Part shown: positions 7,564 through 64,000 of the stretch, piece by piece
Layout of the letters: every line of letters starts with the position of its first letter
Position numbering within the stretch: position 1 is the stretch's first letter
Assembly (NCBI GenBank): GCA_026874595.1
Contig: CM049316.1
Location: 27,511,339 to 27,575,338 of the forward strand
Length of the DNA: 64,000 nt
Direction of reading: 5' to 3'
Origin: Sipunculus nudus
Lineage: Eukaryota; Annelida; Sipuncula; Golfingiida; Sipunculidae
The notes under the pieces: generated by a model
Databases searched by the model: none
The model's input: the letters and a program-made list of their open reading frames with translations, nothing else
What the model was told of the DNA's origin: nothing
Translations under genes and position numbers: made by a program

Positions 7564-7628
<65 letters not shown>

Positions 7629-13600: not shown

Positions 13601-16600
13601 TTCATGGTACTTTATTCTGTAAACGATTATTTAAAAATATATATTTTACACCACGGGGGTGATTATTCAGGACGTAATTATATTGGGGGTAACGGTCCAT
13701 TTGTTATACGCTTATTTTTAAAGACAGTCAGACCAAAATCTCAAACGAATGCGTCTTTCATGGGTTCCTTTTTGCTATGACCCAGCAGTGGGGTGGATAA
13801 CACATCAGCGGCCTACAGGTGCTGCAGTAACCGGGCCTACTTAATACCAGGATAAAAAGATATGAGGAAGTGTATGCTGTTGGCCTGTAACCTAAATGGT
13901 TATGGTTGTATATACTTTAGAAAACTAGCAACAAAATATTTGTTACTTCCATAAAAAAATTGTAAAAGCAAAAATATTACGGCTGTTATTTTAAATTGAC
14001 CACACTAGGATTATGCTATTAACTTCAACTTCATTGTATAAATGAAAAAGTATAGACAATGCCTACATAGCATAAGTCACTATACATAAAACAGAAGTTG
14101 CCAAGTTAAGTGTCTCCGCTTACTTGCATAGTTCCATATATTACGCCAACTCTAGCTTTAATTTGTTATATCTTTCTGAAGGACCGTATGTGGAGAAAGA
14201 CGCGTACAGACCGCGGTGACATCTTAGGTTGTGTCGGAGTGGACCCGAACAGAAACTATGCCACCGGATGGGAAGCACGTAGGTCATATTAATTTAGATT
14301 TTAAAGCTATTCACTTTTTCGTTTAAATCTAAAAATGAAATCAAATGATTAAACCAAAGTATCACTGTTGACAACTCTGGAAAGTTTCTTTCTTTTGCTT
14401 GTGAGTTAGATCTCAAACATGTTTGATTTACAAAATTGATCTTTTAGCACAATATTTGTCTAAGGTGACGGATTTTCACCTGATATTTACTTTTGAACAT
14501 GGCCTAACTTTAAGGTCGTTCCCTCAGTACCCCTATCTCTGTTATCGCAAAGTTGATTTTTTTCTGTGTGTGTGGGAGGGGGGGGGGGGGTTGAGGGAGC
14601 TTCCAGAAGTTCCAGCTTTCGATCATCAATAACAAACATTTAGTAAACTCACTTCTGTTGTCCTAAAAATATATAATAGTGGTGTGCCGATTAATAGATT
14701 ATCGATGATTGGTCTTATATCTGTTATAACCCATTAAACCGATTACACATTTGCTATAATCAATCAGTGGTGTGCCGATTAATCGATTATCGATGATTGG
14801 TCTTATATCTGTTATAACACATTAAACCGATTCCACATTTGCTATAATCAATCACAAACGATTATGAACTCATATTCAAAGAAGTCGTATTATCCAGAAG
14901 TAAATAGTCTTATTTTACAGAGATATACAAACACGGGACCCTAAACAACAATGAGCAAGTGAAACTATTCTAAGCCGGACACCCAGGGGACTTAGAGGCA
15001 TCGTCCATGTAAGTCATAAGTGAGTTGTCCTGTTTAGAGAAGTTTAACATTTATTGCGTATTTGCGTATGGTTTTGCAGCTGAGGGAGGAAATGACGACG
15101 AGCCATGTTCTGACGTATATAGAGGACCCAGTCCTTTCTCGGAACCCAGTCAAGCGGCCGTTAGGGACAAGGTGTTGGAGCTGGCCCCGAGTCTCCGGGC
15201 GTTCATCTCCGTCCATTCCTACTCCCAGCTGTGGCTGATCCCCTACGGATACACGACCAACCAAGTTTCTGACTACGCCGATCTGGTGAGTAAAGTTAAA
15301 GCTATTATTACCCACATTATACTATAAATGTTCTGAAGTGGATCTAGAGGGGGATTCCAAGAAAACGAGACCCGGCCCCCCCCCCCCCCCCCATAAGGTG
15401 TCGCAAACATTTTTTAAAGGTTTCAAATGAATTTTTGCGGCTTGGACCCCCCCCGTACGGGGGACCTTTTTATAGGTTTTGTCATTAGTTCTCCTTTGTT
15501 GGAACCCTCCTTTTCCTAAATTCTGGATTTAGTAATGTAAGCTTGATGTTAGATGTAAGTTTGGCTTTGTCAGATAATCAAGATGCCAGGGCATCTGCTG
15601 GCAAGTCAGATAAGTCAGTGCTTTGCAAATGGCGTTTTGCAATAGGTGATCTTTCTAACTCCGCATATAGGCCTACCACCTGAGGTAACATGTTTTTTCC
15701 CGTATGTAAACATTGCTGTGTTTACAAACACAATGTTGATATAAAAGTTCATATATCCTTCACGGAGGCGTGATAAGAACTTTTCATAACCAAGTTACCG
15801 TTTATCATTAATATATACACAGAAGAAGTAAGAAATCACATAAATTCCTTTTGAAAAGGTAGATGAACGGGCACCTTTAAAACCATATAATGGTCACTTT
15901 TTTTTAATTATGACATCCTGCCTAGACAGGATTTTTAACCAATTTGGAAGGATTAAGAGGGGGGGGGGGGGGGGTAACATGAGCGGGTAAACCAGTGTAT
16001 GGGAGGGGGGGGGGCTCCCTGAACCCAAAATGAAAAACAAAGTCCTCTCGGAATATTCTGACGTAAAATAATAAATACTAGCAGTCTCTATTACACGGGC
16101 CAGTTTTTTCTCCTGCACAGGCCTATATTTGCAAACTTTTGAAATACAGATACCTCATAGGTATTAAGCTATCACAATCTATAAATATTTTTCGGGCGTA
16201 CTTTCTTAGTTACTCCCTCCAATCCCCGCCAAAAAATCATAAATTTATTTTTTTCTATGGTCTGTCATTGTTTGACCTAGACCCCAATATGGCAGATTTC
16301 ATTTTTGACTTTGACCAAGGTGATACAATCCATAGTCGTTTCCCAATTATCGCCCAGTCGCGGCCGTCGAGGGCGGCTTCCTGTGATCGCTCATCGATTA
16401 CAAATATTTACATTTTTAATATAAAATTTGGTACCACATATTGTAAACTTATAATGGAAAATGGGAATAACTATTCTCATAATTTATCAGTACCGACTTC
16501 TTTTCATATCTGCAGATGAACACGGCCCAGTTAACATGTAATGCCATAGAAAGTGTGAACGGTCGATTCTTCACACCCGGCCCGCCCTCAGAGATTCTGT

Positions 16601-26210: not shown

Positions 26211-29200
26211 ATTGAGATCAACCGGTATTAGTTAAGCTTTAAATAAGAGGCCTCTATCTTTGATACCCTCCAGTCCCTTGGCCTTAAACTGCTTTATTGG
26301 AGGGCAATAAGAGCATTTTATTCTAACGACGAAAGGTGGATTTGAAGGTGAAGTTAACGCAGTTATAAAATTTAGTTTATATATTTAATATTTCATATAT
26401 ATATATATAATGAAGAAATTATAGAATATACTCATTTGAATAAAAACAAATACTAGTGAAGAGAGTTTAAATGGTTTGCTATTTCTTTTTAAAGTTGGAT
26501 TGACCAGGCAAACGTGAAGTCAGAGGCGTATTGGAACGGCGAGGCCGTAATGGGCAATGAACCCACCGACTACTTAGATTATGATCAGGTAAAGTCTAGT
26601 GTTTGTATCATTTTGGTATTCAGTTACAGTAAGTTTCTTCTAAAAAGAACAACAACCACCAACAATGTGATGTTGAGTGTAACAGCTCGGTAACTAACCA
26701 TGTGAGAAAGAATAAGAGAAGACCTGTTGGGTAAACTCAATTAAAGTACATTAATTGAAAAATAATTTGTTCATTGGTTCAAAAATATGCTGACACAACA
26801 TAACATAAAGGAAACACTTTATCACGCAGATGTTGCAAAGACACTTAACCAAAATCTAAACGCATCAGCGTCAAACTGTGAATTCTGTTTCCTATTTTGA
26901 AAAGTTACAGGGCGACAATAAAGATGGCTCGACAAAACAAAAACAAAGTCGGACGCACCTTGCCCCCGCCAGGAATCACACATCGCTGTAATGTGTTTAC
27001 TGTCGTCACTTTGCAATATTATTCGTATGCTAGGCCACCTTCAGATTTTAAATACAAAATAATGCATGTACCTGTTAATAATCCTGTTATAATAAAAAAG
27101 TCCTATGTCAGACTGGGACATGTTTTTAATTAAAACAAAGATAACCTCCAAAATTTATTAGGATCTTAATCCTCCATAAAATTTCAACAAATAAAGTTCA
27201 CACTGTACACTTTAATCTGCTCATAGACAAATAATTTTTACAGCAGTAGGGCACACAAAAAACCGCAAAACCAATATTTTCTCATACACATTAACTGTAT
27301 TCTTTAAAGGGGCCCAATCACCTATTAAACATGTTAAATTAACACGAAAAATTGCCTTTCCCTTTAAAATAAATATGTACCTGCCAAAACATAGCCTTGA
27401 AATCGTTTGCTAGCTCCTGTAAACGAGTATTAAAAACCATTGAGCGGGCGCAATCTCAGGTGTCAACATAAACACAGTGCATCGGGCCTTGTGCTTCGTA
27501 GAGCCAAAATACGTGTCAATCAGAAGATGCGCTGACTGACTTGATCCAAAATGTAAAACATGTTGCCGCTGGCTGTAAAAAAAGCGAGTTGCAACGCACA
27601 ATCGGACCTCTGGTCATGCGGCCTTGTTTTAGTAAACAGACACACGTGGACTGTGTTTACCAACACAAAGCCATAACAAGGTGTTAAACAGCCGTACTGA
27701 GACTGTGTGCTGGGATGGATCTGCTGGGAATTTTTTCATAAGCATAACTGACCTGACAGTTTGAAAGAATAGATATATTATTGCTCCTGATTAAGTCCCT
27801 TTAACCTCCTGTTGTTTTAGCGCATTTTTTTTACAAAAATTTTAAGTTACGTTTTTACATCGCTAAGGCTTGTGTCAGTAAACCGTGGATGGCGTCTTTC
27901 TGATACAGCGGGATAGTACAGTCCCCTATGAAAGTTCTTCCGTGTCTATGGCTGCGAGAGTTGTTTATATGATAACAGTGACGTCACAAAGAAGTGACGC
28001 GAAGGTCAGTTGCGTGTGAAAATGCATTGACTGACGTCATCACCTCGAATAGAAGGTTTATTTCTCAGAACCCCAGTAATAAACGTGTCGCAAAGTGTCT
28101 CATACAATTCAGTGCAAAGTAAGGCATTGGTAGTTACCAAAGAAGTCGGCAGAATAGCTCCTTCAACCTTTGTGCAAAAATTTTTTATATTCCCCCAGAT
28201 GTGTAAAAAAACATGAGACTACGGATCCTGATACCTCAACTCCGCTCATGTTCATCTATTTTTTTTTCAAGGGAAAATTTTTTTATTCCATTTCGAGGCA
28301 GAAAATTATAATAACGAATTGAAGATTAATGGATCTTATTTTCAACAAGGAAAAAATACATCTGCCTTACACGATGTCTTGACAGAATTATTTTAAACGG
28401 ATCACCCCATGTTAAGGGTGACACGGTCATTGTTCACATGCAAAAATAGCCAAAGTTGACAGCTGCTGATTGGATGATGTCAGGTAAACACTCCAAAACG
28501 TATGTCCAGCCAGATCAAGGTATGCTACAAATGCTTCTTTATCCTTCACTTATCCCATAGGAAAAATCTAAAAACAAATTGTGGAACAGAAACTACAGAT
28601 TTACTTTAAAGGTCTTACTAGTCACCTTAATTGTCACTTCCATAAGCAGCTCTCTATAAAAATCATTGAGAAATATATTAATTTGAGAAAACACTTTCTA
28701 AAAACAGATGGACAGAGGTTGACCGAAGACAGTATATGACGTCATGTTTATTTGCAGACTGTCACTTGGATGAATAACCTAGCCGCCGCTAATAGCCGTG
28801 TCAGCGTTTCCCAAATGGGACGTTCAGGTCAAGGACGCAATATGTACATGATGACAGTAAGTAACATTCTTTATGTTAATGGCCTAGCTGTTGTTTCATC
28901 AATAAGACGTACAAAAGAACCGTTTAACCATCTAAGCCACAAGGTGCCTCTCTTCAACTTCACTTTCACTGAGTGCGACGTTTAAATATCTAATACTGTA
29001 TAGTAGCATACCTGACCAAAATTCTTTCGCTTAAAATCAAAAGAAGTTAATGTTAAACTTAATTTAAGATCCGTGATACATATATTTTGTTTTTATTTTG
29101 TTTTTATTCTACCATGCTTCTTTCTATCACCTAACTATACATGCATGATACACAAGGTATGAAATTTCTATATGATGACATAAGCTGTTCAATTGTTCTC

Positions 29201-32200
29201 ACAGTATTTTATGGTAGCATTAACGTTCATCGCCTGATATTAATAACAGTTAAAAACTGATTTTATAATGACCACGCCCAGTCATAAGCTAATGGATTGA
29301 ACGAAGGAATCGACGAGATTGTATGTGACAATTCGAATTTTTTTTTTTGTATTTTCCTAGATCAGCACTGGAGGTGCCACCAAACCAGGTGTCTGGATTG
29401 ACTGCGGAATCCACGCCAGAGAATGGATCTCCCCTTCAACGTGCCTTTGGGTCTCCCACAAGGTACTTACATATCATTAAACCTGACCATACATGGATAA
29501 TATAACATTTTGTAATCTTGCTAGTTAGTTACAGATTCAAAAGGGGGAGACTAGCGAGTTTAAATATCAGCTGGGGAGTGGTGAGAGTGTTCGCGGTCGT
29601 TCCCCACCCTAAGGAATCCCTCTGCATAATTAAAAAGAAGCTATTTGAAAAGGCTGTGTTCCACAGCTTTACAGTATATGGGTTATGACCCAACAATGGG
29701 GATGCTATACACACCTGGAACCCGCAGGTGCGGTAATCACCGGGCCTGAGTGACACAAAGTTATAACTGAGAGAAAGCGTGTGATACAGCCCCCTCATGT
29801 AGCCCCATGGGCTAACCTATTATGTTGATGTACATAGTTTAGCTAGCGGCTCCCTACACCATAATTAATTTTTAATTAAAACGAGCAATCGCGCTGATTA
29901 TTACGAGCAGTTTTGTTGATTTTTACCGATAATCCTGGTGACTCTGACGGGTTGAGCCTGACACTTCCTCGTGATTATAATTTAATGAAATATATCTGCT
30001 TTAACAAAGTGTACAATTATACAGATTAGTGCACATGTATATTTAAGTATCTCTCATACAAATCTTAATTTGTTACACAAAAAACATATTTAATAGCAAG
30101 GATATAAGAAAGATATACTTGCCATTAATTATAACATCATTTTTACCATGAAAGAATACCTAAGTAAAAGATTAAAAATCTCTTTTAATATGTTGTAGTT
30201 GGCCACTGGTTACGGATCTGACCCCGACTCCACGTGGCTGCTGGATAATTACGACTGGTACATCGCTCCCGTGATTAACCCGGATGGCTACGCCTACACC
30301 TTCACAAACGTAAGTGTCCGACCAACATTGGTTCAAAAGATAGTTATCACTACTGCACACTCCTCACATCTTCATACACCCAAGTCTGCGACATGACCAA
30401 ACATTCACAGACCTTGATTCTGCGACTCTTCTCACACATCTATTTCATTTATAGTGAACAAGGCCTATGGATCAATCAAATTTCTCGCGGACACTCGTTT
30501 TACGCGGACGTCTGGTGCGATGTTTGATCAACCGTTTAGCATTGCCTAATAGGCATCGAGAATCTAACAGACAAATAAGCCTTTCTCGTTTCTCATACAT
30601 GTGTTCTGAAAAGACCTGTTCAGATGTCTCTTATCAGAGACTGTCGCGGAATCAAAGTCTGCAAATGCGTGGCTATGTCACAGGCCTGGTTTTCTGAAGA
30701 TTACTTCTCGCGCAGCGGTTATACACTCATGTTACATCTCTTTCGGGTAAACCGCTGCTTTATTTAGCCATTTTTCGGGTTCCAACACCAGGCCTAGTAC
30801 AGACCTAACAATGGGACCAACTAGCACCGTGTCGCTGATTTAAAACTTGGAGTTGGATGCACAGTGCAACACAACGCCCTCATTTGTCTGATTACAGTTC
30901 TTTGCCTTGTGCTAATGGCCCTGGTGGTGAAACCCGGAAAATCTTGTTATAACAAGAAAGAGTAAAAGCGAAGGAAATCTGGAACAAATGCAATGTATAA
31001 ACACTGAGTAAGGAATTTATCACTCCGGCTAAACACACACTATAAAATATTATAATAAAATATTACCAGGCTTACACCCTTAGTGAAGCATCCACGTGTT
31101 TTCCTGCAGTAGTTCCCAATATTTCGCCCTATAAGATCAGAATGATATTATTGATAATAATGAGAAACAAATCAAGATATCGTTTTCAAGATGTTCAGTA
31201 TAATTATTTAACATCTCTTATCAGTGACGTTGTGTATAAAGTTGTTGGCAGTACGATCGTTAAGGTTTCAAAGACGTGGTATTCCTGAGCGAGAGGATTT
31301 TTTTTTAAGAAAACGAGGTGAACAGATAGTTCGTGTCTCATTTGCTTCTAATGTACGTTATCCTTGCTTTAAATCTGAAGGCAAAATATTGATATTTTCA
31401 ATGAAAAAAATATATATTTTAAATTACTCAAAGGTTACAGATAACACAATATATGGTAAAAAAAAATATCCATCCATTTGGGATTTCCTCAGGTCCAAAT
31501 TGAATTTTTAAAAATAAGAAAAAATATTTTATATAAAAAAAACGGAAATTTGTCTCGTTCATCCTCCTTCATCAACAATATAATTCAAACTCAAATGAAA
31601 TTTGTGTAGATTTCTGTATGGTGAGATCGCGGAAATTGGAACTTTCGTGAAGCACTGAAAAAAAATGAAAAGTTAACATAGTGTATATGAAGAAACAGGA
31701 TATAAGGATGTGGATATATAGCACCAACTCTAGCAGAGTTATATAATTATTATTTTACCTGAAGGACCGCATGTGGAGAAAGACGCGTAGGGACAACGGC
31801 GACTGGCTGTTTGGCTGTAGGGGAGTCGACCCAAACAGGAACTATATCACTGGATGGAATGCACGTACGTTGTATTCATCAGCTAACAAATTTTAAACGG
31901 GATGTGGGTTGTCGTACGACTACCTAAATGCCCCCGCCAAGACTCCCAAGTTTTTCATGTGTTGTACTACATTTTCACTGGCCGTAATACCTTTGAATGG
32001 TGCGGCATCCCATCGCCTTGTGTCAGACTGATAATCGTTTGAATTAAAAATGCATTAGTGATTCAGGTTACCCGGTTGACATACATATTTTTTAAATGGA
32101 AGACCGTCTTAGTCCCACCAGAGTATAAGAACATCGATTACAATTTTTTTCTCCCTTTTTCTGTCCCTGTTTGCGATGGCTTTGCACTCTAGGGGTCTGT

Positions 32201-35200
32201 GTAGGTCCACCCACAAAAATTCGAAACTAAATATGGATATAGAAATAAACTCATCCTTCCACATAAGCCTTCCCTTCCTAAGGGGGGCCTTAAATATAGC
32301 CGACCTAGTCTTCGGAGAATCAAAAACACTTTCCAGGGGTCGTAATAACGCCTCTCCGACTGTCTCCGACAGGCTAACACGTGCACGGCAAGGCGTTTGG
32401 TAAAAGTGCAGTGTAGGGGCCTGCCTAAAATCTCGCCTGGTGACGGTGACTGGCCTTTATTTTTGGCCCCGCGGACGGGAGCCCTGTGTGTCCTTTCGCG
32501 GAATCAGTGACACGAAAGCTACGCCGGGGCAGGCGTTTTAAAAAAAAAATAAGCCTGCCCCTCAGGTCAGCCCGGGAGCGTTGTTGACGGCCGCAATCAA
32601 TCCCCAGCGCCGGCGGCCCCCATTGGCCGGCGGGGGCATTCCGAGGGGACAGGGTGCTAGAATGATTACCGGGGCCTTGAAACGGGCCGCATCACGCTGT
32701 TGTTACGCGCGAAAAAAAACTCGCCTGTCCCCGGGCAAAAAGCCGGAGGGGTCCACCGGCTAATCATAGCAGCCCTTTTACCAGTTCTGTTCACAGGGGG
32801 GGGGGGGGGGGGGTCGGGGGGTTGCCCCGGCAACGTGGCCAGTGACAGTGACCGAGCGGATGGGCCCTCCTGGGTCGGTTGTCGACCAAAATAAAAAAAA
32901 AAACACCGGGCGTCTTAAAGCGAAAGAAACCATCCCGGGCCGGCAGATAACGAACTGACGAACTAGCCGGGGAGGTTATACGCTGGAGGGGTGCCGCCGC
33001 GGCCCAGGGAAGGCTGGCGGACCGCCGAGGGGCAGGTCTCCTATACTGCACTTTTAACAGGCATTTTTCATTTTGTACTAATCCGTTGGAAAGGTGAACA
33101 CCTAGATGTTTACCACATTAGTAGCTGATAAGTGGCGTTCATCAAGGCTCGGTTTTAGGTCCACTGCTATTCACTGTTGAAGTCTGGGTGGCAGATGTTA
33201 AGTCATGGATGCAGAGCAATTTCCTGTGGCTAAATGATGATAGGACTGAACTCATCATCTTTGACACAAAATTAAAGTTGGCACCATTACCAGATATAAA
33301 GGTTAGAGTTTGAAGATACAACAATCACTCCGAGTGCCACTGCAGAGAACCTTTGAGTAACATATGATTGTAACATGTCCAAGGAGACTCCCATTAGCTT
33401 TAATATGCAAGATCACCTACCGGCACAAGCGGAATACATACGACATCAGGAAATACCTAACATCTGACCCCAAGACTTTTTTTATAGAGGCACTATGACT
33501 ATGCCAACTCTCTCCATTATGGACTTCCTAAATGTACTAGTGGTCGCCAACAAAAGGTAAGGAATAAAGCGACTAGGGTCACCACAAGGGCAAGTCTTTG
33601 TGACAGCATCAGCCCTGTGTTAACCGGCTGCCTGTCCAGGGCCACATCAGATACCAAGTGTTCCTGTTAACTTTTAATGGATTTCAGGGAATTGCTCTAG
33701 TAACATTGCTGACATGTCAGATCCGTACGCTCATCCAGTTGTGCTAAATAAAAGGCTAAAGGTTTTGGGTGGCAGGACCCCTAGTATGACTTATCACGTG
33801 AGTGGAATTCCTAACCAGATGCACTCCAAAAAGATGAATGCCTGAGTGTGTTTAAAAGATGGGCATATATATTATGGTACAATATCTTATTTTAGTCGAT
33901 ATTTTATCCACCCTAGTGTTTGAGCCATCAATATATATTTATCTATAAATTCATGCGGTGTCGTTTCAAACTTCTACTTTTCCTATTTTATGTAAAGCGC
34001 AATAGAGCATGATCTCAGCGTGAATTTTGCACTGTATAATATATGTATGATAATAATATATTTAATGTTTAGTGAATACGTTTTAATATTGCAGCTGAGG
34101 GAGGAAATGACAACGAGTATTGCTCTGACTCATACCGAGGACCCAGCCCTTTCTCTGAACCCAGCCAGCAGGCCGTGAGGGACACAGTGATGAGCCTCTC
34201 CAACCTCCAAGTCTTCATCTCCATCCATTCCTACAGCCAGCTGTGGCTCATCCCCTACGGCTACACTAGCATCCGTGCCCCTGACTACGCTGAACTGGTC
34301 AGTGAGCTAAAGCTAATACCAATATGACGTTCCATATTATGCAAGGTATATCGGTAGTTAGCTTAAGGAGAAATTTCATGACGTTCATGATCAATCCGTC
34401 ATGTTATTGTAATTATTTTCATTATTTTATATATAATAACATCTTTATCCATCCAAGTCTGTTACATGGCCACGAATTCACAGACCTTGCTTCCGCTACC
34501 CTCTCTTGCATATATTTCATGAATAATGAATAAGGCATTTGAGCCAATCGAATGGCTCGCCTACATCCATTTTTTTCTGGATTGATCTGGATCTGTTTGG
34601 ATCAGCCGTTTACCATTGCCGGGATGGCATCGAGAATCTGACCAATCAATTCAGTCCGTGACGTATCTGGTACATGTGATCTGTTCAGACGACGTATGAA
34701 GAATGTATTGCTTACATTCGATTGGTTGGGTTTGATTGACAGTTGTGATTTCTGCCTCAACACATGCAGAGAGGGTCGCGGCATCAAGGTCTGTGAAAGC
34801 TTGAGCATGTCACAGATTTGGTTGTATGAAGATGATAAACAGGAACAATATTGGACAGAAACGTTACTTTTCAAGGTGTAACAGCCTGTCAGGCCGGCAG
34901 AGAAGCATTTTCCCTTAATCAGGCTTACTCACGACAAAATCTCCTGCTGTGTGCAACAACATATTGCACGAAACTTCGTAGTCGTAAAAAAATCTGACGA
35001 AACTTAATTTGTCAGAGGTCAAGTTCCCTTTCCCCGTAGATTGTGAATGGAAATTGCTCCCATTATCAGTTATATCAATATGAATGTGTTCGATTCACCC
35101 AAGTGTGGTCTTAAAAGACAACTGGTTTTTCAGAAATGTAACATTTTATCTCAAACGCACAGTTAACATTGATAGACGCATTGTTCTTGCATGTATCGAT

Positions 35201-35317
35201 ATTCCTTACGTTCATCTCCAATACTTTTACTTTAGATATAAAAGTATTCTTATTTGTATTTCATCCACCGGATGGCAATGCCAAATATCATATAAATACT
35301 ATTAACATATCATACAA

Positions 35318-35369
<52 letters not shown>

Positions 35370-36978
35370 TATATGCATTCAAAATCGGTTTCTTCTTTAT
35401 ATATCTGCAGATGTCCGTGTCTCAAGTTACATGTAATGCCATTCAAAGTGTGAATGGTCTGTCCTTTACATACGGTCCTGCCCCAGAGATCCTATGTAAG
35501 TATAGGGGTGTTTCCAATCTTTCATACTGTGGCAAGTTAAGGAGCATCCATTGGGAAAATTTCCTGATTAAAAAAAATTAAAATTAATACAAGATCCATA
35601 AATTAAATAAAATTTTAAACCTGTTGTAGTGCTTGTGCTTATGGTATACATATATTTTCAAATTTACATTCATTTTCAAATAATACACTATTATTTATTT
35701 TTTTAAAATAATACACCAGGATAAGCAGCAAGTAAGAGCAAACTACGATTTAGCTTGCCAAAGCTGTATTTCTCATGTGTGCGATTATGCGCATGTGTCT
35801 GACTTATACAGTGGACCTTGCAGGTATTCCCAAAATAGTTGATGGTGTGACGTCATTTTGACCCGAAATCATGAGTTCAAGCAGACCCTATGCGTGAAAA
35901 TCGCTCCTGTGGCAAAATTCCACGCACATATATATAGGCACATACGCTGACGGACAGATAGAAACACCACAGTTACAAAATCATATGAGCGAATTTTCCC
36001 GCATATATGCGCACATGGAAACACAGCTTTACATTTTACTTAATGATAATATCTCAAAGCCTTAAATATGATTTTTTTTTATCAAAATTAGAATTTCAAT
36101 GTTAAGGTAGATAGAAACAAGACAGAAAAAAAATTTTTGAGATGCTGTCATGTAGTTTAATATTACCCCACTAAACTGTGGTTTACTGTTATTGGGTGCT
36201 TCAAATAAGGTACTATTATTCTTTTTTATTTTAGAAATATAATGCGAAAATGAATGAAAATTTTAAATATATGTTTACCTTCTGAAAGATGACTCTATCA
36301 GGTTTAAAATATCTATACTTTATGGGGTATAATTGAATTTTAAAAACCTTTTGGGCGGATTTTAGATATATTGGTTTTTGCCTAGGATGCTGCCTTAGCT
36401 TCCAGATCTATATCTTCATTAGTGATAGTTGAAAGTCACATAAACAGTTGCAATAATACATGGATTATATAACGTAACGCTATTAGTTCATTTTGGCTGA
36501 ATACAAAATTTCCAAGCAAAACCAAACGACATATGAACATACCATCTCAAGTTCACCTGTTTTACACACTATGGTTCAGATCTATGTGTGAGAAAAAACA
36601 GTCCACGTGTATCTATTTAAATAACCAAACTATTTCCAATGATAGTTTGGCGATTGTATACATCTAGCTTTACATGGATCTTACAAATCGTTAAAATAAC
36701 TAATCCACAGGACAGATGCTAAATTACGGAAACCATGTAACCAGTATGGCCATGTATTTGTTACAGACACTGCCGCCGGTGTATCCTCGGACTGGGCTTA
36801 CGCTCCGTCTAACCACCCGGATGGCGGTGGAGTAAACATCAAATATGCATTCTCTCCTGAGCTGAGACCTGCAACTTCCGGGCAAGGAGGGTTCATCATT
36901 GATCGCAGCAACATCCGCCCCAGCGGCAGAGAAATCTTCGCAGGCTTGAACGCCAAAATGCGCCGTTTGGCCAGCTAG
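22771..36978 (+). CDS. Secreted M14A metallocarboxypeptidase, gene 2, 11 exons
   Basis: Exons: 22771-22835, 24986-25076, 25536-25669, 26495-26588, 28758-28856, 29361-29462, 30199-30309, 31765-31864, 34095-34297, 35411-35495, 36767-36978. They join to 431 codons plus TAG, with the same intron phases as gene 1 and all GT-AG. It is a tandem paralogue of gene 1: 50 of 70 residues in the last exon are identical by my own alignment. The signal peptide starts [15 protein letters not shown] and a prodomain follows. Zinc ligands are H179, E182 and H310. R181, R237, N256-R257, Y362 and the catalytic E393 are all present, as is the Cys pair C250/C275. The residue equivalent to CPA 255, which sets S1' specificity, is S369. 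This is neither the Ile/Leu of CPA nor the Asp of CPB, so substrate preference probably differs from gene 1 (inference). The Gly-rich insertion before E393 is shared. The zymogen is probably activated near K105. Confidence 0.94.
23251..23285 (-). repeat. tRNA-derived SINE remnant with shortened spacer
   Basis: On the minus strand a good pol III A box, TGGCGTAACGG (23285-23275), is followed by a B box, GGTTCGAGTTC (23261-23251). The 24-bp spacing is much shorter than the roughly 43 bp usual for tRNA heads, so the anticodon part appears deleted. It lies in intron 1 of gene 2. Confidence 0.45.
23500..23775 (+). repeat. Dispersed repeat of about 260 bp, copy 1
   Basis: A diverged copy in the same orientation lies at about 56340-56605. 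Shared landmarks in order are GGTATAAATAT, GATAAGAATT-like, TTTTGYRAGC, GCGCATGTG, TTAAMRGGTGTTTC, TTGAAATG and AAGTAGTCC. This copy lies in intron 1 of gene 2. The other follows the first exon of the Cys-rich gene. The family is unassigned. Confidence 0.65.
27979..28039. promoter_or_regulatory. Two perfect CRE palindromes in intron 4 of gene 2
   Basis: TGACGTCA occurs at 27979-27986 and 28032-28039. A third copy sits at 28737-28744, only 13 bp before exon 5, and others are at 35848-35855 (intron 10) and 19437-19444 (intergenic). This 8-mer is the consensus site of CREB/ATF factors. Five copies in 64 kb of AT-rich DNA is more than expected by chance, but function is inferred only from the motif. 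Confidence 0.35.
29684..29770 (+). repeat. Dispersed repeat, copy in gene 2 intron 6
   Basis: Diverged partner of 13779-13860, sharing TTATGACCCAACAATGGGG-type sequence and ACCGGGCCT. See that entry. Confidence 0.6.
30380..30689. mobile_element. MITE with 47 bp terminal inverted repeats, copy 1
   Basis: The left end starts CCAAGTCTGCGACATG and runs for 47 bp to CTTGATTCTGCGAC. The right end is its imperfect complement, from GTCGCGGAATCAAAG to CACAGGCCTGG. The interior is short and non-coding. A second copy at 34453-34821 has the same ends. Both lie in introns of gene 2 (introns 7 and 9). No clear target duplication is visible, so the superfamily is not assigned. Confidence 0.75.
30838..30945 (+). 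repeat. Dispersed repeat of about 105 bp, copy 1
   Basis: Contains GGAGTTGGATGCACAGTGC and ends near AAACCCGG. A diverged copy in the same orientation lies at 60006-60106, with GGAGCTGGATGCACATTGC and AGACCCGG. This copy is in intron 7 of gene 2. The other is in the B-C intron of the Cys-rich gene. Confidence 0.6.
32339..32395 (+). repeat. Dispersed repeat, copy 1 of 2
   Basis: GTCGTAATAACGC followed by a pyrimidine-rich stretch and GACAGGCTAACACGTG. It is matched at 52577-52640 by GTCGTAATAACGC and GACAGGCAGACACGTG. The left flank of the GC-rich element starts directly after it. Confidence 0.55.
32401..33056. mobile_element. GC-rich element with 25 bp inverted ends
   Basis: The left end (32401-32425, starting TAAAAGTGCAGTGTAGG) and the right end (33031-33056, ending TACTGCACTTTTA) are imperfect inverted copies. 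The interior is strikingly GC-rich compared with everything around it and includes a run of 18 G. Small open frames exist on both strands, but none resembles a transposase. It sits in intron 8 of gene 2, which is nearly three times longer than in gene 1. A CpG-island-like regulatory element is an alternative reading, but the matching ends favour a transposon. Confidence 0.6.
33131..33850 (+). pseudogene. LINE (CR1/Rex/Jockey-like) reverse transcriptase remnant
   Basis: From 33131 an open stretch reads [12 protein letters not shown], then [16 protein letters not shown] and RTELIIF, ending at TGA 33311-33313. These are recognisable blocks of non-LTR retrotransposon reverse transcriptase, but the segment between them that should hold the catalytic YADD box is missing. 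Downstream, after frameshifts, [21 protein letters not shown] and [10 protein letters not shown] match the usual C-terminal region (compare the family pattern DYCNSLLYGLP). It is an old, inactive insertion in intron 8 of gene 2. Confidence 0.75.
34453..34821. mobile_element. MITE with 47 bp terminal inverted repeats, copy 2
   Basis: Same family as 30380-30689. The left end is CCAAGTCTGTTACATGGCC and the right end is GCATGTCACAGATTTGG. It lies in intron 9 of gene 2. The interior differs in length from copy 1 (369 versus 310 bp in total), which suggests separate insertion or a large indel. Confidence 0.75.
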
Positions 36979-52984: not shown

Positions 52985-54115
52985 ACCGATATTATCAAAC
53001 AACATGTTGAAACTGGTTGGCCGAATTTTTTTTTTCAAAATATTGAAACCGGTAAGCCGATTGTATTCAACATCTTGAAACTGGCAGGCCGATAGTTTTC
53101 AACATCTTGAAACCGGTGGTCCGGTGGTATTAAACAACATCTTACTACCGGCGGGCCGATGGTATTAAACAACATTTTGAAACCGGTGGGCCGATAGTAT
53201 TTAACCACATTTTGATACCGGTGGGCCGATAGTATTTAACAACATCTTGATACCGGTGGGCCGATGGTATTTAACAACATCTTGATACCGGTGGGCCGAT
53301 GGTATTAAACATCATATTGAAACCGGTGGGTCGATGGTATTAAACAACATATTGAAACCGGTGGGCCGATAGTATTTAACAACATCTTGATACCGGTGGG
53401 CCGATATTATTAAACAACATATTGAAACCGGTTGGCCGATAGTATTAAACAACATATTGAAACCGGTGGACCGATAGTATTTAACAACATCTTGATACCG
53501 ATGGGCCGATATTATTAAACAATATATTGAAACCGGTTGGCCGATAGTATTAAACAACATATTGAAACCGGTGGGCCGATAGTATTAAACAACTTCTTGA
53601 TACCGGTGGACCGATAGTATTAAACAACATCTTGATACCGGTGGGCCGATAGTATTAAACAACATATTGAAACCGGTGGGCCGATATTATTAAACAACAT
53701 ATTGAAACCGGTGGGCCGATAGTATTAAACAACATCTTGATATCGGTGGACCGATGGTAAATAAACAACATCTTGAAACCAGTGGGCCGATATTATTAAA
53801 CAACATATTGAAACCGGTGGACCGATAGTATTATACAAAATCTTGTCACCGGTGGGCCGATAGTATTAAACAACATCTTGATACCGGTGGGTCGTTGGTA
53901 AATAAACAACATCTTGAAACCAGTGGGCCGATATTATTAAACAAAATCTTGTCACCGGTGGGCCGATAGTATTAAACAAAATCTTGATACCGGTGGGCCG
54001 GTAGTATTAAACAACATCTTAATACCGGTGGACCGATAGTATTAAACACATATTGAAACCGATGGGCGATAGTATAAACAACTTGTTGATGCCGTTGGGC
54101 AGATGGTATTAATTT
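52985..54115. repeat. Satellite array, 35 bp unit, about 30 copies
   Basis: The unit contains ACCGGTGGGCCGATAGTATT and then an AAACAACAT-rich half. The period is 35 bp (for example 53182 to 53217). Two unit types alternate irregularly, one with ATTGAAACC and one with CTTGATACC. A block at 53756 is repeated at 53897 (lag 141 bp, four units), showing higher-order duplication. Edge units are degenerate. The open frame on the minus strand only reflects a unit free of stops. Confidence 0.95.
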
Positions 54116-55536: not shown

Positions 55537-55555
55537 GTTACCAGGACAACGCGCG

Positions 55556-58500
55556 ATGTCTTCCCTTAAGTTGATCCTGCTGGTGTGTCTTGTGGGAGCA
55601 ACTGTCTTGACTGCGAGTGCACATGGTGGTAGAACATCCGGAGGTCGAAGAAGATCTGGATGGGGATTCGATTGGTCGGGTGGTCGTAGAAGGTGGTACA
55701 GACCAGATGCCAAGTAGGTAACAAGTTCGGCTCTCTCCTCTGGTGCCCTGGGTTCGAATCCCGGAGTAACCATTAGTGTGAGTTGTAGTGGCCTGTCCAC
55801 GGTTAGTTGACTGGCCCAGTCGATGAAATGAGTGATTTAATTCCTCCTACTGACAGAGCTATCAAACTTGTTCTTGCTATCACAACGGTTAGAACAGGTA
55901 CTGCCACTGTGACAAACTATAATTATTTTACGACTTTTGACTGATACAGTCCAGTTTTTTTTTTCTAGGATATTTTAACACCACACATCACCTGCTCGTT
56001 TAACTATGGTCTTTTCCAGTGACGTCTGCAGTTATATTTGTGGTCTTTCTCAGAAATCTACACCTAATCACGCCTAATTAATGGGCCATTTCAGCTGGCT
56101 AATGATATCCCGATTAAACCGCTCTTAATATCATCAAGCTCTCTCATATGTTAAGACCGATGGCCGTTCAGTGAGGTTTTCATTAACATAACCTATTAAC
56201 CTAACTACCATTATTTTGGTAGCAGAAGTTTTAATTACCGCTTATCAGGATCAGCCCATCGGTCCACACTGCACATACTGGGATTCACTAGAGTACGGTT
56301 CTGCTGTTTGGTGATTGTTGGAGTCAAAATATGACCCCACAATGCACCGGGGCTTCTAAATACACCAGCGGCGTAGGTATAAATATAGTGGAGAGGAAAA
56401 TGTATTTCTTTTAAAGTTCGTTGGATAAGAATTATTTCAATGCAAATTACATGGCCTAACAATACTGTACGTGTTTGTGGTAAGGGCTTTACGGAATATG
56501 TGATATTTTGTGAGCATGCGCATGTGGAATGTTAACAGGTGTTTCATTGAAATGTAACTAAATTTTATTTTAAAGTATAAACAGGTGAGAAAAGTAGTCC
56601 CGGCTCCCACAATACACAAACAGAAGAGGTTCGTTTCGAATAGAAACGACCTCTAGCGGAAGGGTGCCCATTGGCCTGTTTAAACAAAATGTAACAAATT
56701 GTAACAGTCAGCGTATCCCCCCCCCCCCCCCCCCGTCTGGTGTTTAAGTGTACATGCGGCGATGGCAGATAAAATGTAATACATGTAACCCCTTTGCTGA
56801 AACAATCGGGACGAGTAACCTGTTGGTATTGGATAACACGGAGTCTGGCATATAGGTGCTCGATCTATCGTTACATATTCGTCTACAATGCATTTGTGAC
56901 GCCCTAATATGCAAATATCAGGGATTCACCATACCGAGTTTACAGGGATTTATTGATAAGAGCTGGCACTGGGTTACGTCTATAGGTTCATGGAATCAAG
57001 TTTTATTTTACGCATTTTTGTACCAATTAAACATATAAAATGAGGCTATATCAGGGCTAAAGGTTGGTTGTGTTTTCCCCGGTTTCCTAACCCCTTAAAG
57101 GTGCCCCTTCCCCTACCTTTTGAAAAAGAATTAATGTGACTTCCGGCTTCCTCTATGTACATAATAATGATCAAAGGGTAATTTTGGTTGTGAAAAGTTC
57201 TTATATGGCTACCGTGAATGATGCATGAAATTGTTTATCATCAATATGTTTGTTAACACAGTATTGTTGAAAAGTGGGGAAAAACAACATGTAACTTAAG
57301 GTGTCTAGTTACATTTGTTTTTGATATTTTGGCGGGCCCCTACACATTATAAACATGTTGATATAAACAAAACAAGCAGCCTGTGTGCGGTGATATCAAC
57401 GTTTTCTGGCCTATTTTTTATTTAAGCTCCAAGGGATTACTTTTAGTTTATAAAGGTCAGAAAAGTGATGGCCTCTTTAAGACTACCTGAGTCATGCACA
57501 GTGCCTAGAAATGGTTATTTATATTTTTAGAAACCATGTAAAATAAATGCGTTTAAACTGAAAGTCTAAATAGATCTTTAAACGATTTGCCTCCCTCGAA
57601 TTTAACAAGCAGGAACTTTAGGTGCAGTTGGAGATCGAGGGCAGGCCTAAGCATTAATTGAAATCAGCATTTTTATGCAACCAGTCATTTCACGTTTTGT
57701 ATATTTGAATTGTTGGTGGGTGTAAAAGCTACAGAAGCTGGGAAAGGCAAACAGGCGAGCGAGCCAGCGGAACTAAAGCGTTCACACGATAGTTTAGCAA
57801 AGCGGATAAAACAGTTATCCGAAACGTTTAAAACCATCTCCTAAGCTTGAGCAAAACTGAACGCTATGGATTGCCGTGTGAGGGCTCTAAAACGCTTTCA
57901 AAACGAGTTGAAACCGGTTTGCATTTGCCGTGTGAAAGGGTAGTAATAAATTTGACGCTAACGTTCGTATAGGTGTGCAACAGTTAAATTGAATGCGATT
58001 TAAGATCATGAAAATTTTGATCCCGAAATTTGATTTATTAAAAATCTATTTGTTGTTTTGGTCAGTGTTCTAGATGCTTACATTGAGAAAGGTAAAGACT
58101 ATGGTTAATATTTACAGCTTATTTCCTCCCAGCAAGCCAAAGACTTAGAGAGGCCGTTCCTAATTCCCCCCCCCCCCCCCCCCCCCATTAAAACTTTGTA
58201 AAATAAAACTCATTACTAATCCACTGTGGCATCACACGTATGCATTATGGTAGACTAACCTGTTGGTAGGTTTTAATGTCGACACATGGCAGCACCATGT
58301 TAAGAGTGTTTTAGAATCTGTCACCTAGCGGCAATTATATAACCAACTCTCATTTGTCGTAATATATAAGGTATTGGTATGAGTCAGTGCAGAGGTTCCT
58401 GACTCAGTTATATCTACTGAGGATTACGCCTTATTATATATATATTTTTGTAAATAAATAATTTGTAACTACACGGCAGGTCTGACGGATCTGGTCTACA

Positions 58501-61500
58501 TGGTAAGAATCTCAGTCTTAGGGCCTACTCGAAAATTCAAAACTGATTTCGGTTCTAACATCTGCTAAAATCGGTTCTATGTTGTTTCGCCTTGCATTTA
58601 TAAGTGGACGGTTTTGTAACTGGTCAATTTATATTGGAATTATGAAAAAAATAGACTGTTTCCCTGTTTCCAATAATTTACACACCTACGTGTGAAACGA
58701 CATGGACATACATTATACGTGCGTTTCATATTTAGCTATACAGGATAAAAGTAGGGAATATTGAATCCAAACACTTCCTAAAGAATGTTTATACCTCAAT
58801 TATTGCTTATTTAACTCTAAAAGGCATCAACAGTATCAATTAATAAAATAATTAACAGAATTGTACCACCTTGGCTCTCCGCCGCCATGATGCCAGTATA
58901 ATTATCGAGTGGACGGTTTTGGCGAAACCGAAAGCATCTCCGGAGATGGTTTCGCAGTTTCGCCAATACCAGTTTCGGTTTCACTATTATTACGACAACG
59001 GTTTCCCGGAAGTGGCCGAAACCAGTTTCGAATTTTCGAGTGGGCCCTTAAGCTCCGGGCGATGAATCAAGAAGTATTGCAGCCATCAGACTAATTAAAT
59101 TAGTGAAAAGAATTCATACGTGAAAAAAACGCGAGAAAACGGATGGCTTGACTAAAGATTTAAACATATTTATTTGGAAACAGGTGTATATGCAACATGA
59201 CAACGCCCGCGGGTACCACGTCTCACCCCCAGACGACTCGCATCGACTGCACCATGCCCTCCGCTGATAAACTCACCGCGTGCCGAGAGGCGTGCCAGGC
59301 CTTCCTCAACAAAACGCAGGCTGACAGCAACAGGGGACCAGTCAGATCTTGGTGGGACATTTTCCGACCCAGATGGAAAAGATGGGCCACATGGGGATGG
59401 TGGGACTGTTACGGTAGCAGGAAAATCTGCAGAGATAATAACAACAACTCCACCCTGCGTGTAATTATGAGTATTATTAATAATAGTAGTCGTAGTGGTA
59501 GTTACAGCTAGTTGTAGTTGTAGTGGCAGTAGGAAGAATGGAAGTATGAATATCATTTGTCATGACTGTAATTTATTTTATTAAATCTTATGTTTACATT
59601 AATATAGATATATATTTAGAAGATTTATGATGTCTTATTATTACCGGAACATTATCATAATTACGAAAAGAAATTATTATTTCTCACTATCAAATTGATT
59701 GATCAAATGATGTATGATAATAATAATAAGAAGGAGAAGAAGAAAATAATAAAAACAAAACAATAAAAATAATAATAATGGTAATCACCATAAAGATAGT
59801 GGTAGAAAAAATAACAGTTAATCGTGACATGTATTATTCATTAGAATTATCATTATCTACACTAAGGCCTGTGGTTTTGTTAAAAATATATATTGCGTCC
59901 TGCAGAAAATATAGGATACACGAGAGGTAAAAAGCACGCACTCTACTGATTACAATGGTTCTGGCACAGAGCCAAGAATAAGACAACGACAGTAGGTGTT
60001 GCATATTTAAACTGTGGAGCTGGATGCACATTGCGATACCACGCTCTCATTGGTCTGAAAAAAAATTTGTTCTGCGCTAACCCTGTCGGTAAGACCCGGG
60101 GAATAGTACTATACAATACAGCTTCTATAGCCAGGGAGATCCGGAGCTCGATTGATCTGTTGACTGATCAATGAGATAAAAACTTTGATGGGACCAGTGC
60201 TCGAGTGCGGGGGGGGGGGGGGGTCAGGTTGCCTGGATTGACAATGCAGTGATTTAAGAACGGCCTTGAAATAATGTTTTGGCACAGGCGTTATCATTGG
60301 TCGACTATGGTAACAATCCCACGATGGTGCTCGGAAGCCGCTCGGGCCTGTTCGAGTGTCATGGAAATGAAGACCACTAAAGGGTGTCCGCTGTACCCGA
60401 TCAAACAGCTAATTATACGCGGCTAGGAACCGTAACGCGAGTTAGTTTTGTGTTACACGGGACCATTCGGTTTGATTTTATGTTCATGCAAGAGATAAGT
60501 TAGTGACTCACCGTTGGTAGGTTGGAAATGGATAGTTCATATAGCAGGTCGCTCGGGGTCTTCCGTAAGTCGTTTCATAGCTTTTGTTTTTATATTACCA
60601 TGGGTAGTATGAGGCTATGTGGGGCTATTAAGACCCGGTTTGATACTACTATAGAACGCGGGCTTCAGCCCAACAACCATTGGATACTGCTTCTTGCATC
60701 TTAATTTTGCCACTTATTTTTATCTGCCACTTACACTCTCCTCCATTACATATATCCTAAACATCATAAAGACCGTCCGTATACACTCATAACCTCGTCG
60801 AGACTGTGCGTGAATGATTCTACATTCGGTCTGGAGCCCGCGTTGTGGGATAACTGCATATATTCCTTCACCAAAGATTTAAGATATAATAATATATCAG
60901 GAATATTGCAGTTATCCCACATTACGAAAGAGATGTATCACCTTGAAGGCTAGTATAAATGATGGCAGTTTTCTTATAACAATTAATAATAATATTCTGA
61001 AAATAATGAAATTCTGATAATAATAATAATTATTATTATAATTATAATTATGATAATATTATTGTATTATTATTTTCAGGCAGATATATCTTTCTGGATT
61101 AAATCAGATGTGGAGGGATGTGCTACACCCGCCGCCCCTGTAGGTACTGCAGTGATTAACTGTACCCGATCAACTGGAACTTCAAGACCCGGCACTCCAA
61201 ATCCACCCGCCGCTCCAACTCCACCCAGCGCTACAAATCCACCCGCCCCTCCGCTCCCATCCGTAAACACTGAGTAAGTTCACTATGTTCCAATCTCAAA
61301 TCACTTTGTCTGTGATCAGTCATTATTAAAACAGACCAGAAATGGACAATATGTTTTGAAATGACAATCACTGAACTATACATGTTTGTCATATCTCCGA
61401 CAGGTGGCGCGAGTTATTATGTTTTACCTATGGTTATTTGATTTGATCAGCTGTTTTATGCAATAAAAAAATCTGAATAGATTTTGATGAAATTCTGTGG

Positions 61501-62861
61501 AGTTTAAGGTGACACCAAATGAGGAATGCATTATAGTTTAGAATTAATCTGGATCACCAGCATTTTTTTCATGCAAGGCTTCCTTCCACTTGTGGCACAC
61601 GGCTATTTCTTTCGTCCCTATTGAGACCCAGAGTCAATGTTATAGAGCTAATCAATGAATGGCGATCATGAACCATGAAAAACATTTCCTGTGTTCCAGT
61701 GAAGTCTGACTCAGATCCTGGTGGAGGAGGTTGTGGCCCCTGACCACTCTCATGTCATCAATACTTTCACAGTGCTTCAGTCAATAGTACGAAAGCAATG
61801 TGTCCATGTGGTACACATTCCTGGGATGTTGCCAAATGATACGTTTCTAGCCAATGTTGTTATGAAGTGTTCCCAGCTGATGGTCTTTAACTTTAGTGAA
61901 CATTATGACCCTAAGCTCGATTGTCGTGTTACTGGGATGGTCTTCACAGAGTTCAGGGTGGGACATGTAATAGAGGTCAGGGTGGTCGTGTTACCTTGTC
62001 ATCATAGCCGGGTGGTTGTGGGACTGAAGTGGTCGTAATACTGAAATATCATCTTTTTCGAGCTGTGCTCATGGTATAGTTTAAATGATTGAATTAGGAG
62101 TCGTCCCCAACACTAAACGGATTTAGGTTCTTATTTATTATATCCTTGAAATGAACGATGGAATGAAAAATGGTAGTCAAAAGTCGTCAAAGCGCTATAA
62201 CGATCACCTCGTTAACATGACCACCCGCTCAACGAACACCGCAAATACACGACCATAACTATATGTAACGACCAATTCGGTAACTGACCAGCCATCTCGG
62301 TAGCACGACCTGTTCGCCATGACGGCAACTACTTAATGATTTAACGATATATGTCTAACAAACACGACAACCCCTGTATAAAGCACTCATTGTTTTGGGA
62401 TAATACGAGTCTGGCTTTATATATTTCACATCCTGTCAGTTACACAAGTGAGACGTTATACATAAACGATAAACCCTCGCCAAATGACCACCTCGGTTAA
62501 AACCACCCCCAAATATCGACCAATTTCATGGTCCCAAGTCTTTTTTGCTTTTTTTTTATCAGACCTCGCTTAGCCGACCAACATGAAAATGTGACCACTT
62601 TATGGGGGTTCCATGGTTTGTCGTATTTTTGACGTGTCACTGTATATTTAAAAAAATTTTTTTTTTAGCTGTACATGCATGTTCTCCGCTGGCGGAAACA
62701 CGCACAATGAGACCATGAGTCGAGAAGGGACCCCGTGCTCTCAGATGGATGAGATTTGCGTGCACCACTGCCGTGCTTTCAGGGAGACCCTGGACGACTC
62801 TCCACAGTCTAGCCTGGCCAGAACCATGTGCTGTTTCGAACCAGGGGCAACCTCCGTCACC
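55556..62861 (+). CDS. Unrecognised secreted modular Cys-rich protein, 3' end not seen
   Basis: Proposed coding exons are A 55556-55713, B 59184-59460, C 61080-61273 and D 62669-62861. Phases agree throughout (2, 0, 2, 0) and the join is open for 274 codons. A encodes a signal peptide (about residues 1-22) and a Gly/Arg/Trp-rich segment (SGWGFDWSGGRRRWYR). B and D look homologous: each starts Cys-X-Cys, then has 16-18 residues, a Cys, 6-9 residues, and Cys-X3-Cys-X-Ala-Phe. D ends with a Cys-Cys pair and B with a Trp/Arg-rich run plus WWDC and KIC. C is a Pro/Thr/Ala-rich linker with two Cys (GC and NCT). N-glycosylation sequons occur in B, C and D. A to B and C to D both use a phase 2 junction just before CxC. 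I do not recognise the family. More modules may follow after the donor at 62862. B could instead run on to a TAG at 59509. Confidence 0.5.
55701..55773 (+). repeat. tRNA-like SINE head overlapping the end of exon A
   Basis: A perfect B box, GGTTCGAATCC (55751-55761), lies 43 bp after TGCCAAGTAGG (55708-55718), which is A-box-like. The last codons of exon A and its GTAGGT donor therefore sit inside a tRNA-related sequence. The acceptor stem does not pair, so this is not a tRNA gene. Confidence 0.45.
55859..55922 (+). other. Possible alternative terminal exon with Cys-X-Cys motifs
   Basis: In one frame this short stretch encodes TCSCYHNG, then a TAG (55890-55892), then NRYCHCDKL and a TAA (55920-55922). 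An acceptor ending at 55858 joins exon A in this frame and stops at the TAG. Another acceptor ending at 55897 (AGAACAG) also joins in frame, skips the TAG and gives a peptide of about 60 residues ending YCHCDKL. It could be a short alternative product of the gene, an EGF-like or CxC module being lost, or chance. Confidence 0.3.
56340..56605 (+). repeat. Dispersed repeat of about 260 bp, copy 2
   Basis: Diverged partner of 23500-23775 in the same orientation, lying in the A-B intron of the Cys-rich gene. The open frames on the minus strand over this stretch belong to the repeat. Confidence 0.65.
56606..59183. other. Remainder of the A-B intron, no exon recognised
   Basis: Holds poly-C runs at 56717 and 58166 and otherwise unremarkable AT-rich DNA. 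I looked for further exons of the acceptor plus Cys-X-Cys kind and found none that I would support. The frame near 58871-59094, including repeated GGTTTCG/AACCGAAA-type words, has no splice or motif support. Confidence 0.45.
60006..60106 (+). repeat. Dispersed repeat of about 105 bp, copy 2
   Basis: Diverged partner of 30838-30945 in the same orientation, in the B-C intron. Confidence 0.6.
60845..60920 (+). ncRNA. Pre-miRNA-like hairpin in the B-C intron
   Basis: The left arm (60845-60867, starting GTGGGATAACTGCA) pairs with the right arm (60899-60920, ending TGCAGTTATCCCAC) over 22 base pairs. There is one single-nucleotide bulge and a 31-nt AT-rich loop. Partial pairing may extend a few bases outward. 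Arm length, loop size and position on the sense strand of an intron suit a microRNA precursor. A tiny palindromic MITE is the main alternative, because the stem is almost perfect. Confidence 0.35.
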
Positions 62862-64000
62862 GTAAGTTCATCAAACTATTTTTTTTTATCTTTAAGCAGG
62901 GATACTTATATTAGTTGTAAACGGGGTGTCTTGTGAACCTCACCTATATTTTCTTTAATTTACATTTCAGGGTTATTTGGTTTGTTTTGTTTTGTAGTCC
63001 TACCAGGGCTTTAGTAGTAATGTTTGCTGATAAAATGGGTAAAATAAAACGTGATTCTATGTACCGATAGAGAAACTGATGCCAGCTCTTATGAATGAAT
63101 AATGAAAGAGTTAGCCAGGGATCTTTAAATTAGTTCTATAATTTGCTGCGAGGTGGCATCACCTGTTCTAAGCGTTGCGACACAAAAAGAACTTGTTTAA
63201 GAAGAAGTTTAATGATTCTGTCAGAGCAAGGAATTAAGTTCTATCCATTGTTGCGCTGTGCTCGTGGCAAGAAATTTATACATGGGTATGTTTATCTTGA
63301 AGACCTTTTTACTAAAGATTTTAACATTTGCCAATATTTGCGATCATTTGCGTCCCCCGAATAGAAAACGGGGGCATTCAGATCTTCAAAGATCTTTGAC
63401 TGATTACATATATTAATTATTATTGTTGGAAGTATAAAGGATAGATGGATGTAAGGAAGATATCAAATGTATAATATGAATTAAATGTGTTTTAGGGAAG
63501 GAAGCAGTTCTTAAAGAAAGAAATGGGAATATGCATACCTCGTTAGTTGCAGAAGCGGAACTGGGGTTCCAAGTGGTCGGAACACCACCTCCGCCCTCTT
63601 TTTTTCAGCCGCCGCAACCTATTATAAGGGTTTCAGACCATTATTTGCGGCCTGGACCCCTCCCCCCTTCAACCTTTCGGACCTTAGGACCTTCTTTGAG
63701 TTTTCTTTATTATTCCTCCCAGGTTGGACCCCTCCTTTTCCTAAGTCGAGAGTCATATGTTTCTCACATTTATAGACAATGCCAGTGGGTCAGTCACAGG
63801 GTCAAATGACAGGCCAAACATACTGATACCTGTCACTGAATAGACTTTAATTCTGGCACTAAGCGACCACGGAGACATTTCGGTCTTTGTTCGGTGCAGA
63901 GCGCAGATCTGAGTCTGCTCAAAACGAATCATTCTTATTAATATTCACACATGAGAAAGCCTGTTTAAAAAGCCCTCCACGAGTGCGGTGCAGTCGCGAC
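62862..64000. other. Region after exon D, next exon not identified
   Basis: If the module repeats, a phase 0 Pro/Thr-rich exon is expected next, but I cannot point to one. The frame at 63143-63364 has a few Cys near its start but no initiator and no clear acceptor. The frame at 63531-63809 overlaps the GGACC-rich dispersed repeat also seen at 15425 and 18200. Confidence 0.4.

Follow-up and report, generated by a model that had tools for sequence, protein, structure and literature searches.

Two look-alike cysteine-rich exons in a candidate secreted protein gene of Sipunculus nudus

A 64,000-nt stretch of the genome of the sipunculan Sipunculus nudus (GenBank assembly GCA_026874595.1, contig CM049316.1, positions 27,511,339 to 27,575,338; here called the window) holds two cysteine-rich open stretches of similar layout, B and D, together with a signal-peptide-like stretch, A, upstream of both and a proline-rich one, C, between them. 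Do these belong to one gene, and do B and D descend from a single exon? A first-pass annotation, made from the letters of the sequence, had described a modular secreted protein built from a repeatable two-exon cassette, with a possible role in mucus, defense, or matrix; its observations are partly confirmed here and its interpretation is partly supported. The best reading of the locus is that of two look-alike Cys-rich exons in a secreted multi-exon gene. In its full form, which we hold tentatively and at somewhat less than an even chance, this is a single animal gene with four or more coding exons, encoding a secreted, N-glycosylatable, Cys-rich and Pro-rich modular protein in which B and D stem from an old duplication.

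Joined in order, A, B, C, and D (Table 1) give 274 codons without a stop, across introns of 3470, 1619, and 1395 bases. As computed from the coordinates, B and D both enter in phase 2 and exit in phase 0, and C enters in phase 0 and exits in phase 2, just as had been claimed. The N-terminus is hydrophobic, with a best 10-residue mean hydropathy of 3.2, which fits a putative signal peptide, and there are six matches to the N-glycosylation sequon, two of them overlapping each other; the protein is likely to be secreted. After the signal peptide the joined protein has 16 Cys residues, seven from B, two from C, and seven from D. Exon C encodes 14 Pro in 64 residues, and its remaining two frames, as read by eye, are closed by stops. 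The length of the open reading frames (ORFs) is weak evidence in itself, because A and B both lie in stretches that are open on the opposite strand too. The G+C (GC) fraction of the exons is 0.52 to 0.58, vs. 0.27 to 0.35 in flanking sequence, and all four lie inside islands of 200-bp windows with GC of at least 0.5, which make up 4% of the window. Three of six stretches assigned to upstream carboxypeptidase genes also lie inside such islands. As a sign of coding sequence this is supportive, not specific.

Table 1. Positions of the proposed exons and of the repeat near exon A, in window coordinates.
Feature	Position	Strand	Description
Exon A start region	55537..55713	+	Acceptor-like site before 55537; ATG at 55556
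Exon A	55556-55713	+	158 nt, exit phase 2; signal-peptide-like N-terminus, then Gly/Arg/Trp-rich stretch
Repeat with tRNA-like T-arm	55700..55900 (approximate ends)	+	Putatively SINE-like (short interspersed nuclear element)
Exon B	59184-59460	+	277 nt, phase 2 to 0; Cys-rich unit 1: CIC-x18-C-x10-CREACQAF, then Trp/Arg-rich stretch, two further Cys
Exon C	61080-61273	+	194 nt, phase 0 to 2; Pro/Thr/Ala-rich linker with two Cys
Exon D	62669-62861	+	193 nt, phase 2 to 0 at GTAAGT, or terminal; Cys-rich unit 2: CTC-x19-C-x6-CVHHCRAF...CC
Possible last exon E	62998..63030	+	SYQGFSSNVC-stop, phase 0 entry; putative

Splice sites were scored with a generic matrix of consensus frequencies, and the scores are meaningful solely as ranks within the window. 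The acceptor before 55537 is in the top 1.5% of AGs, and the donor of A (AA/GTAGGT, the slash marking the exon edge) in the top 3.2% of GTs. The acceptor of B ranks in the top 8.4%, that of C in the top 0.6%, and that of D in the top 16.5%; the donors of C (core GTAAGT) and D (GTAAGT) are in the top 9% and top 6.2%, respectively. For the candidate exon E there are two acceptors, before 62998 (top 4.8%) and before 62971 (top 0.3%), the latter opening a frame that, by eye, encodes GYLVCFVL-stop. Possible beginnings of the gene were surveyed by scoring signal-type first exons according to exit phase, at 50-61.05 kb for phase 0 and at 50-62.6 kb for phase 2. The acceptor of exon C requires a phase-0 donor upstream, and no signal-type first exon exiting in phase 0 was found in its range; the sole one with a phase-2 exit is exon A. 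Over the first 63 kb, signal-type starts numbered two for phase 0 and ten for phase 2. This survey is supportive of exon A, not decisive.

B and D resemble each other most clearly in their borders and their cysteines. Each begins one base before the CxC (TGTATATGC and TGTACATGC), after a phase-2 acceptor, so that the exon border falls at the identical position of the unit; by our estimate, sharing both entry and exit phase would happen by chance about one time in nine. The Cys spacings are 1-18-10-3 in B and 1-19-6-3 in D, with x-A-F after the CX3C of both. The pattern first given for them holds exactly for CX3C-x-A-F, but the distance from the CxC to the third Cys is 18 and 19 residues rather than 16-18, and that from the third to the fourth Cys is 10 and 6 rather than 6-9. 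A CxC..C..CX3C pattern with spacings of 16-20 and 5-11 matches twice in the window, at B and at D, and not once in 60 dinucleotide shuffles, a test that is partly circular because the pattern was derived from B and D themselves. With a looser pattern there were two minus-strand matches in ~290 kb outside the window, neither with x-A-F and one antisense to a long ORF. The local BLOSUM62 score of B against D, 42, was reached by 97 of 5000 free shuffles, and by 64 of 5000 in which the Cys positions were fixed.

The proposed cassette, one Cys-rich and one Pro/Thr-rich exon, is indeed neutral to the reading frame, arithmetically (B plus C is 471 nt, C plus D 387 nt), but nearly automatically so: the equal entry phase of B and D makes B plus C divisible by three, and frame neutrality is therefore not independent evidence. 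That the cassette is repeatable found no such backing. Neither the B/D profile, nor the pattern, nor tblastn with A, B, or D turned up a third unit in the window, the 230 kb downstream, or the 60 kb upstream, and on this ground a long cassette array in the flanks searched is rejected. The best other match to the B/D profile (-27858..27983) has an expect value (E) of 0.034 in the window alone and of 0.16 over 304 kb. In the upstream flank the best profile match has E 0.5 and the best tblastn match to B has E 0.11, both weak. Exon C, compared with the window and a 40 kb flank, gave many weak matches from low-complexity sequence. Searched by protein and by DNA through the whole assembly (1.43 Gb, 153 contigs), D matched only itself.

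Several results weigh against one gene with a duplicated exon, and they lead to other explanations. Some of them concern the kinship of B and D. When only the cores are compared, their score is reached by 277 of 5000 shuffles, and when the alignment is anchored at the Cys and only the remaining residues are scored, by 815 of 5000. Alignment no better than that of shuffled Cys-matched sequence had been named in advance as the refutation of the first-pass annotation, and the outcome is borderline, at 64, 277, or 815 of 5000 according to the set-up. At E up to 10, tblastn searches of the window with either exon fail to recover its partner, and the genome search with D likewise misses B; that genome search therefore speaks against close copies only. 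The best local alignment is out of register at the CxC, pairing the second Cys of B with the first of D, and the third Cys is unpaired in both it and the MAFFT alignment. All of this would fit a coincidental likeness between unrelated Cys-rich exons, of one gene or of two, as would the unequal spacing between the third and fourth Cys and the Trp/Arg-rich stretch present in B and absent from D. We nevertheless consider coincidence rather unlikely, in view of the common exon border relative to the CxC, the same phases, the exact CX3C-x-A-F, and the shuffles devoid of the pattern. On balance, the shared Cys frame and exon border appear to favor a common origin, to which residue similarity seems to contribute hardly anything; beyond the Cys, similarity between B and D looks borderline or absent. 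An AlphaFold2 model of B alone places a strand at residues 2-6 (the CxC being residues 1-3), a second strand with the third Cys at 19-23, and a helix with the CX3C at 27-49. This placement would fit a core of CxC strand and CX3C helix, but the model is poor, with a mean predicted local distance difference test (pLDDT) score of 49, and too weak to rely on.

Other adverse points concern the extent of the gene. GC islands without any assigned exon number 13 of 20, and the donor of exon A lies inside or beside a repeat (see below). The weakest link of the chain is the donor of B (CGT/GTAATT), in the top 20% of GTs. Beyond it the reading frame of B stays open as far as a stop at 59509-59511, and ATTAAA follows at 59580; past the donor of D, the frame is likewise open up to a stop at 62934-62936, and AATAAA follows at 63043. 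With these stops and signals resembling polyadenylation (polyA) sites close by, 69 nt beyond the stop for B and 107 nt for D, either could be a last exon, and genes shorter than A-B-C-D are possible. Perhaps A and B, which are in frame through that first stop, are a complete gene by themselves, whose product would be a small secreted protein, rich in Cys and in Trp/Arg and 161 residues long, with C and D in another transcript or in a longer isoform. This arrangement is unlikely, though it deserves to be taken seriously; it leaves the strong acceptor of C without a partner, given the result of the phase-0 survey, and the GC island over B stops at 59480, close to where the exon is proposed to end. 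Alternatively, A might splice to either B or D as alternative last exons, which would give a pair of small proteins alike in their Cys frames, with C minor or unused. The common phase-2 entry of B and D would allow this, an A-D-E joining is also open, and both exons reach stops followed by polyA-like signals. However, it leaves unexplained an exon C with a good acceptor and a GTAAGT donor; we regard it as quite improbable.

The repeat beside exon A affects how the first intron of the four-exon gene would begin. Its T-arm, at 55747-55764, is a weak match to a transfer-messenger RNA (tmRNA) model (7.1 bits, E=1); searches of the window with Rfam at gathering scores and with ARAGORN gave no result. 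Part of the repeat recurs on the minus strand at 63153-63194 (34 of 43 bases), and also at L023:8641-8709, minus strand (79% over 72 columns, E 1.8e-9); no second copy of the 5' part turned up. A tRNA-derived head would start near 55700, which would put the donor after 55713 within the repeat. A second phase-2 donor candidate, upstream, after 55692, would sidestep it. An in-frame TAG at 55715-55717 follows just past A, and an unspliced exon A would encode a 53-residue precursor. With one donor candidate before the repeat (55692) and the other inside or beside it (55713), the repeat may have furnished exon A with a splice donor.

If the four exons are indeed spliced together, the protein would consist, in order, of a signal peptide, a basic Gly/Arg/Trp-rich leader, a first Cys-rich domain with a Trp/Arg-rich tail, a Pro/Thr-rich linker, and a second Cys-rich domain, ending at D or soon after. 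B and D would most likely come from one anciently duplicated exon that kept its border, phases, and Cys frame while the rest of the sequence drifted apart. Within either unit, a strand-helix core locked by disulfides is probably built from the CxC at the start of the exon and the helix with the CX3C; the CxC/CX3C pairing is that of cysteine-stabilised folds, in reverse order along the chain. The linker would separate the two cores. The protein would then be an extracellular scaffold in which a Pro/Thr-rich spacer carries two small disulfide-locked heads, with basic aromatic stretches in addition, and it may bind a surface, matrix, mucus, or microbe. Everything in this scheme beyond secretion is what we infer, from splicing and duplication to disulfides, fold, and function; the exon anatomy, the phases, and the Cys pattern are observed. 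A bolder proposal, which we see as a long shot, is that B and D represent a new disulfide domain, a strand-helix core in reverse order to that of defensins, encoded by phase 2-0 exons and coupled to a Trp/Arg-rich, possibly antimicrobial segment, and that a tRNA-derived repeat has taken over the splice site of the first exon.

The first-pass annotation recognised no family for the protein, and database searches bear this out. Relatives were sought in Pfam, the PDB, viral contigs (IMG/VR), bacterial and archaeal genomes (GTDB), and plasmids; no convincing one was found by sequence in Pfam or the PDB. At E up to 10, with HMMER filters that discard most matches above 0.1, Pfam-A gave no family for B or for the joined protein and three for D, all below their curated cut-offs. 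RET cadherin-like domain 4 (PF17813) aligned with D residues 11-38 (E=0.034; 14.6 bits, below the 25-bit curated cut-off) over just 28 of 105 profile positions, and not with B; in the PDB, D aligned with a RET chain at E=1.2. The Pfam match was judged to be chance. Matches in the PDB numbered four for the joined protein (best E 0.91), three for D (best E 0.27), one for a 24-residue segment of D (E 0.75), and none for B or for the B/D profile; none were convincing. Two pattern stretches for B and one for D in IMG/VR contigs, and 19 stretches for B in GTDB genomes, included no relative. D gave 32 stretches in GTDB, with one locus (17 residues at 65% in a Moraxellaceae metagenome-assembled genome) that was judged to be chance, as were seven rows among plasmids (E 1 to 9). 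Endothelin-like and GFR-alpha/GAS1-like proteins, considered as leads, had no match by sequence in Pfam or the PDB, searches that very short or distant relatives can escape; a fold in common with them is conceivable. Among the open-licence papers listed by literature searches, no account of such a protein was noticed in the titles and opening parts of abstracts. We class it with secreted Cys-rich proteins that have no family name; its restriction to a single lineage would be a guess.

The neighborhood of these exons includes several other features. Upstream, split stretches on the plus strand, at 7288-15312 and 28761-36978, seem to represent a tandem pair of M14 carboxypeptidase genes; of nine stretches searched, six match PF00246, four of them above the cut-off. 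The nearer gene ends ~19 kb upstream of exon A. A minisatellite occupies 52986-54112, with self-alignments at 73-86% identity and units of ~70 and ~105 bases, judged from offsets. Its minus strand partly reads as a repeated YYRPTGFNMLFNTIGQPVSI-like peptide and is probably non-coding. Downstream, in window coordinates, open frames on the minus strand at ~78890-80294 resemble a non-long-terminal-repeat (non-LTR) reverse transcriptase by eye, and a 796-codon open frame with a following frame, at 87433-90448 on the plus strand, is likely the candidate next gene. By eye, these two frames resemble an NYN-ribonuclease gene of the N4BP1/Regnase type.

If the gene model holds, it adds to the secreted Cys-rich proteins that belong to no named family, and offers a test case for exon duplication in which a Cys frame and splice phase may outlive sequence identity. 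Two known systems offer a comparison. Cys-rich and Pro-rich domains alternate in lustrin A. This abalone nacre matrix protein is described as having ten Cys-rich and eight Pro-rich domains plus a basic domain (PMC4498902). The predicted A-D protein is similar in mixing Cys-rich, Pro-rich, and basic parts, but it has a single linker, and its Cys-rich units number just two in the window and ~290 kb of flank. The profile of the lustrin Cys-rich repeat (PF14625), searched at E up to 10, matches neither B nor D nor the whole joined protein; elsewhere in the genome it has two matches over the cut-off (G000:C3:70113865-70114005 and G000:C13:65329999-65330139), and in 14 control genomes none. The A-D protein may be like lustrin A in plan, but not in family. 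In defensins of the cysteine-stabilised alpha/beta (CS-alpha/beta) type, the cysteines of a CX3C and a CxC form a helix-strand core. Both motifs are present in B and D. The defensin order is C..CX3C..C..CxC (PMC5234102), whereas B and D have the reverse, CxC..C..CX3C; with this order, and no convincing Pfam or PDB match, they were not classed as CS-alpha/beta defensins. Should a structure show the reversed CxC/CX3C core, a well-studied disulfide scaffold would have gained a new arrangement.

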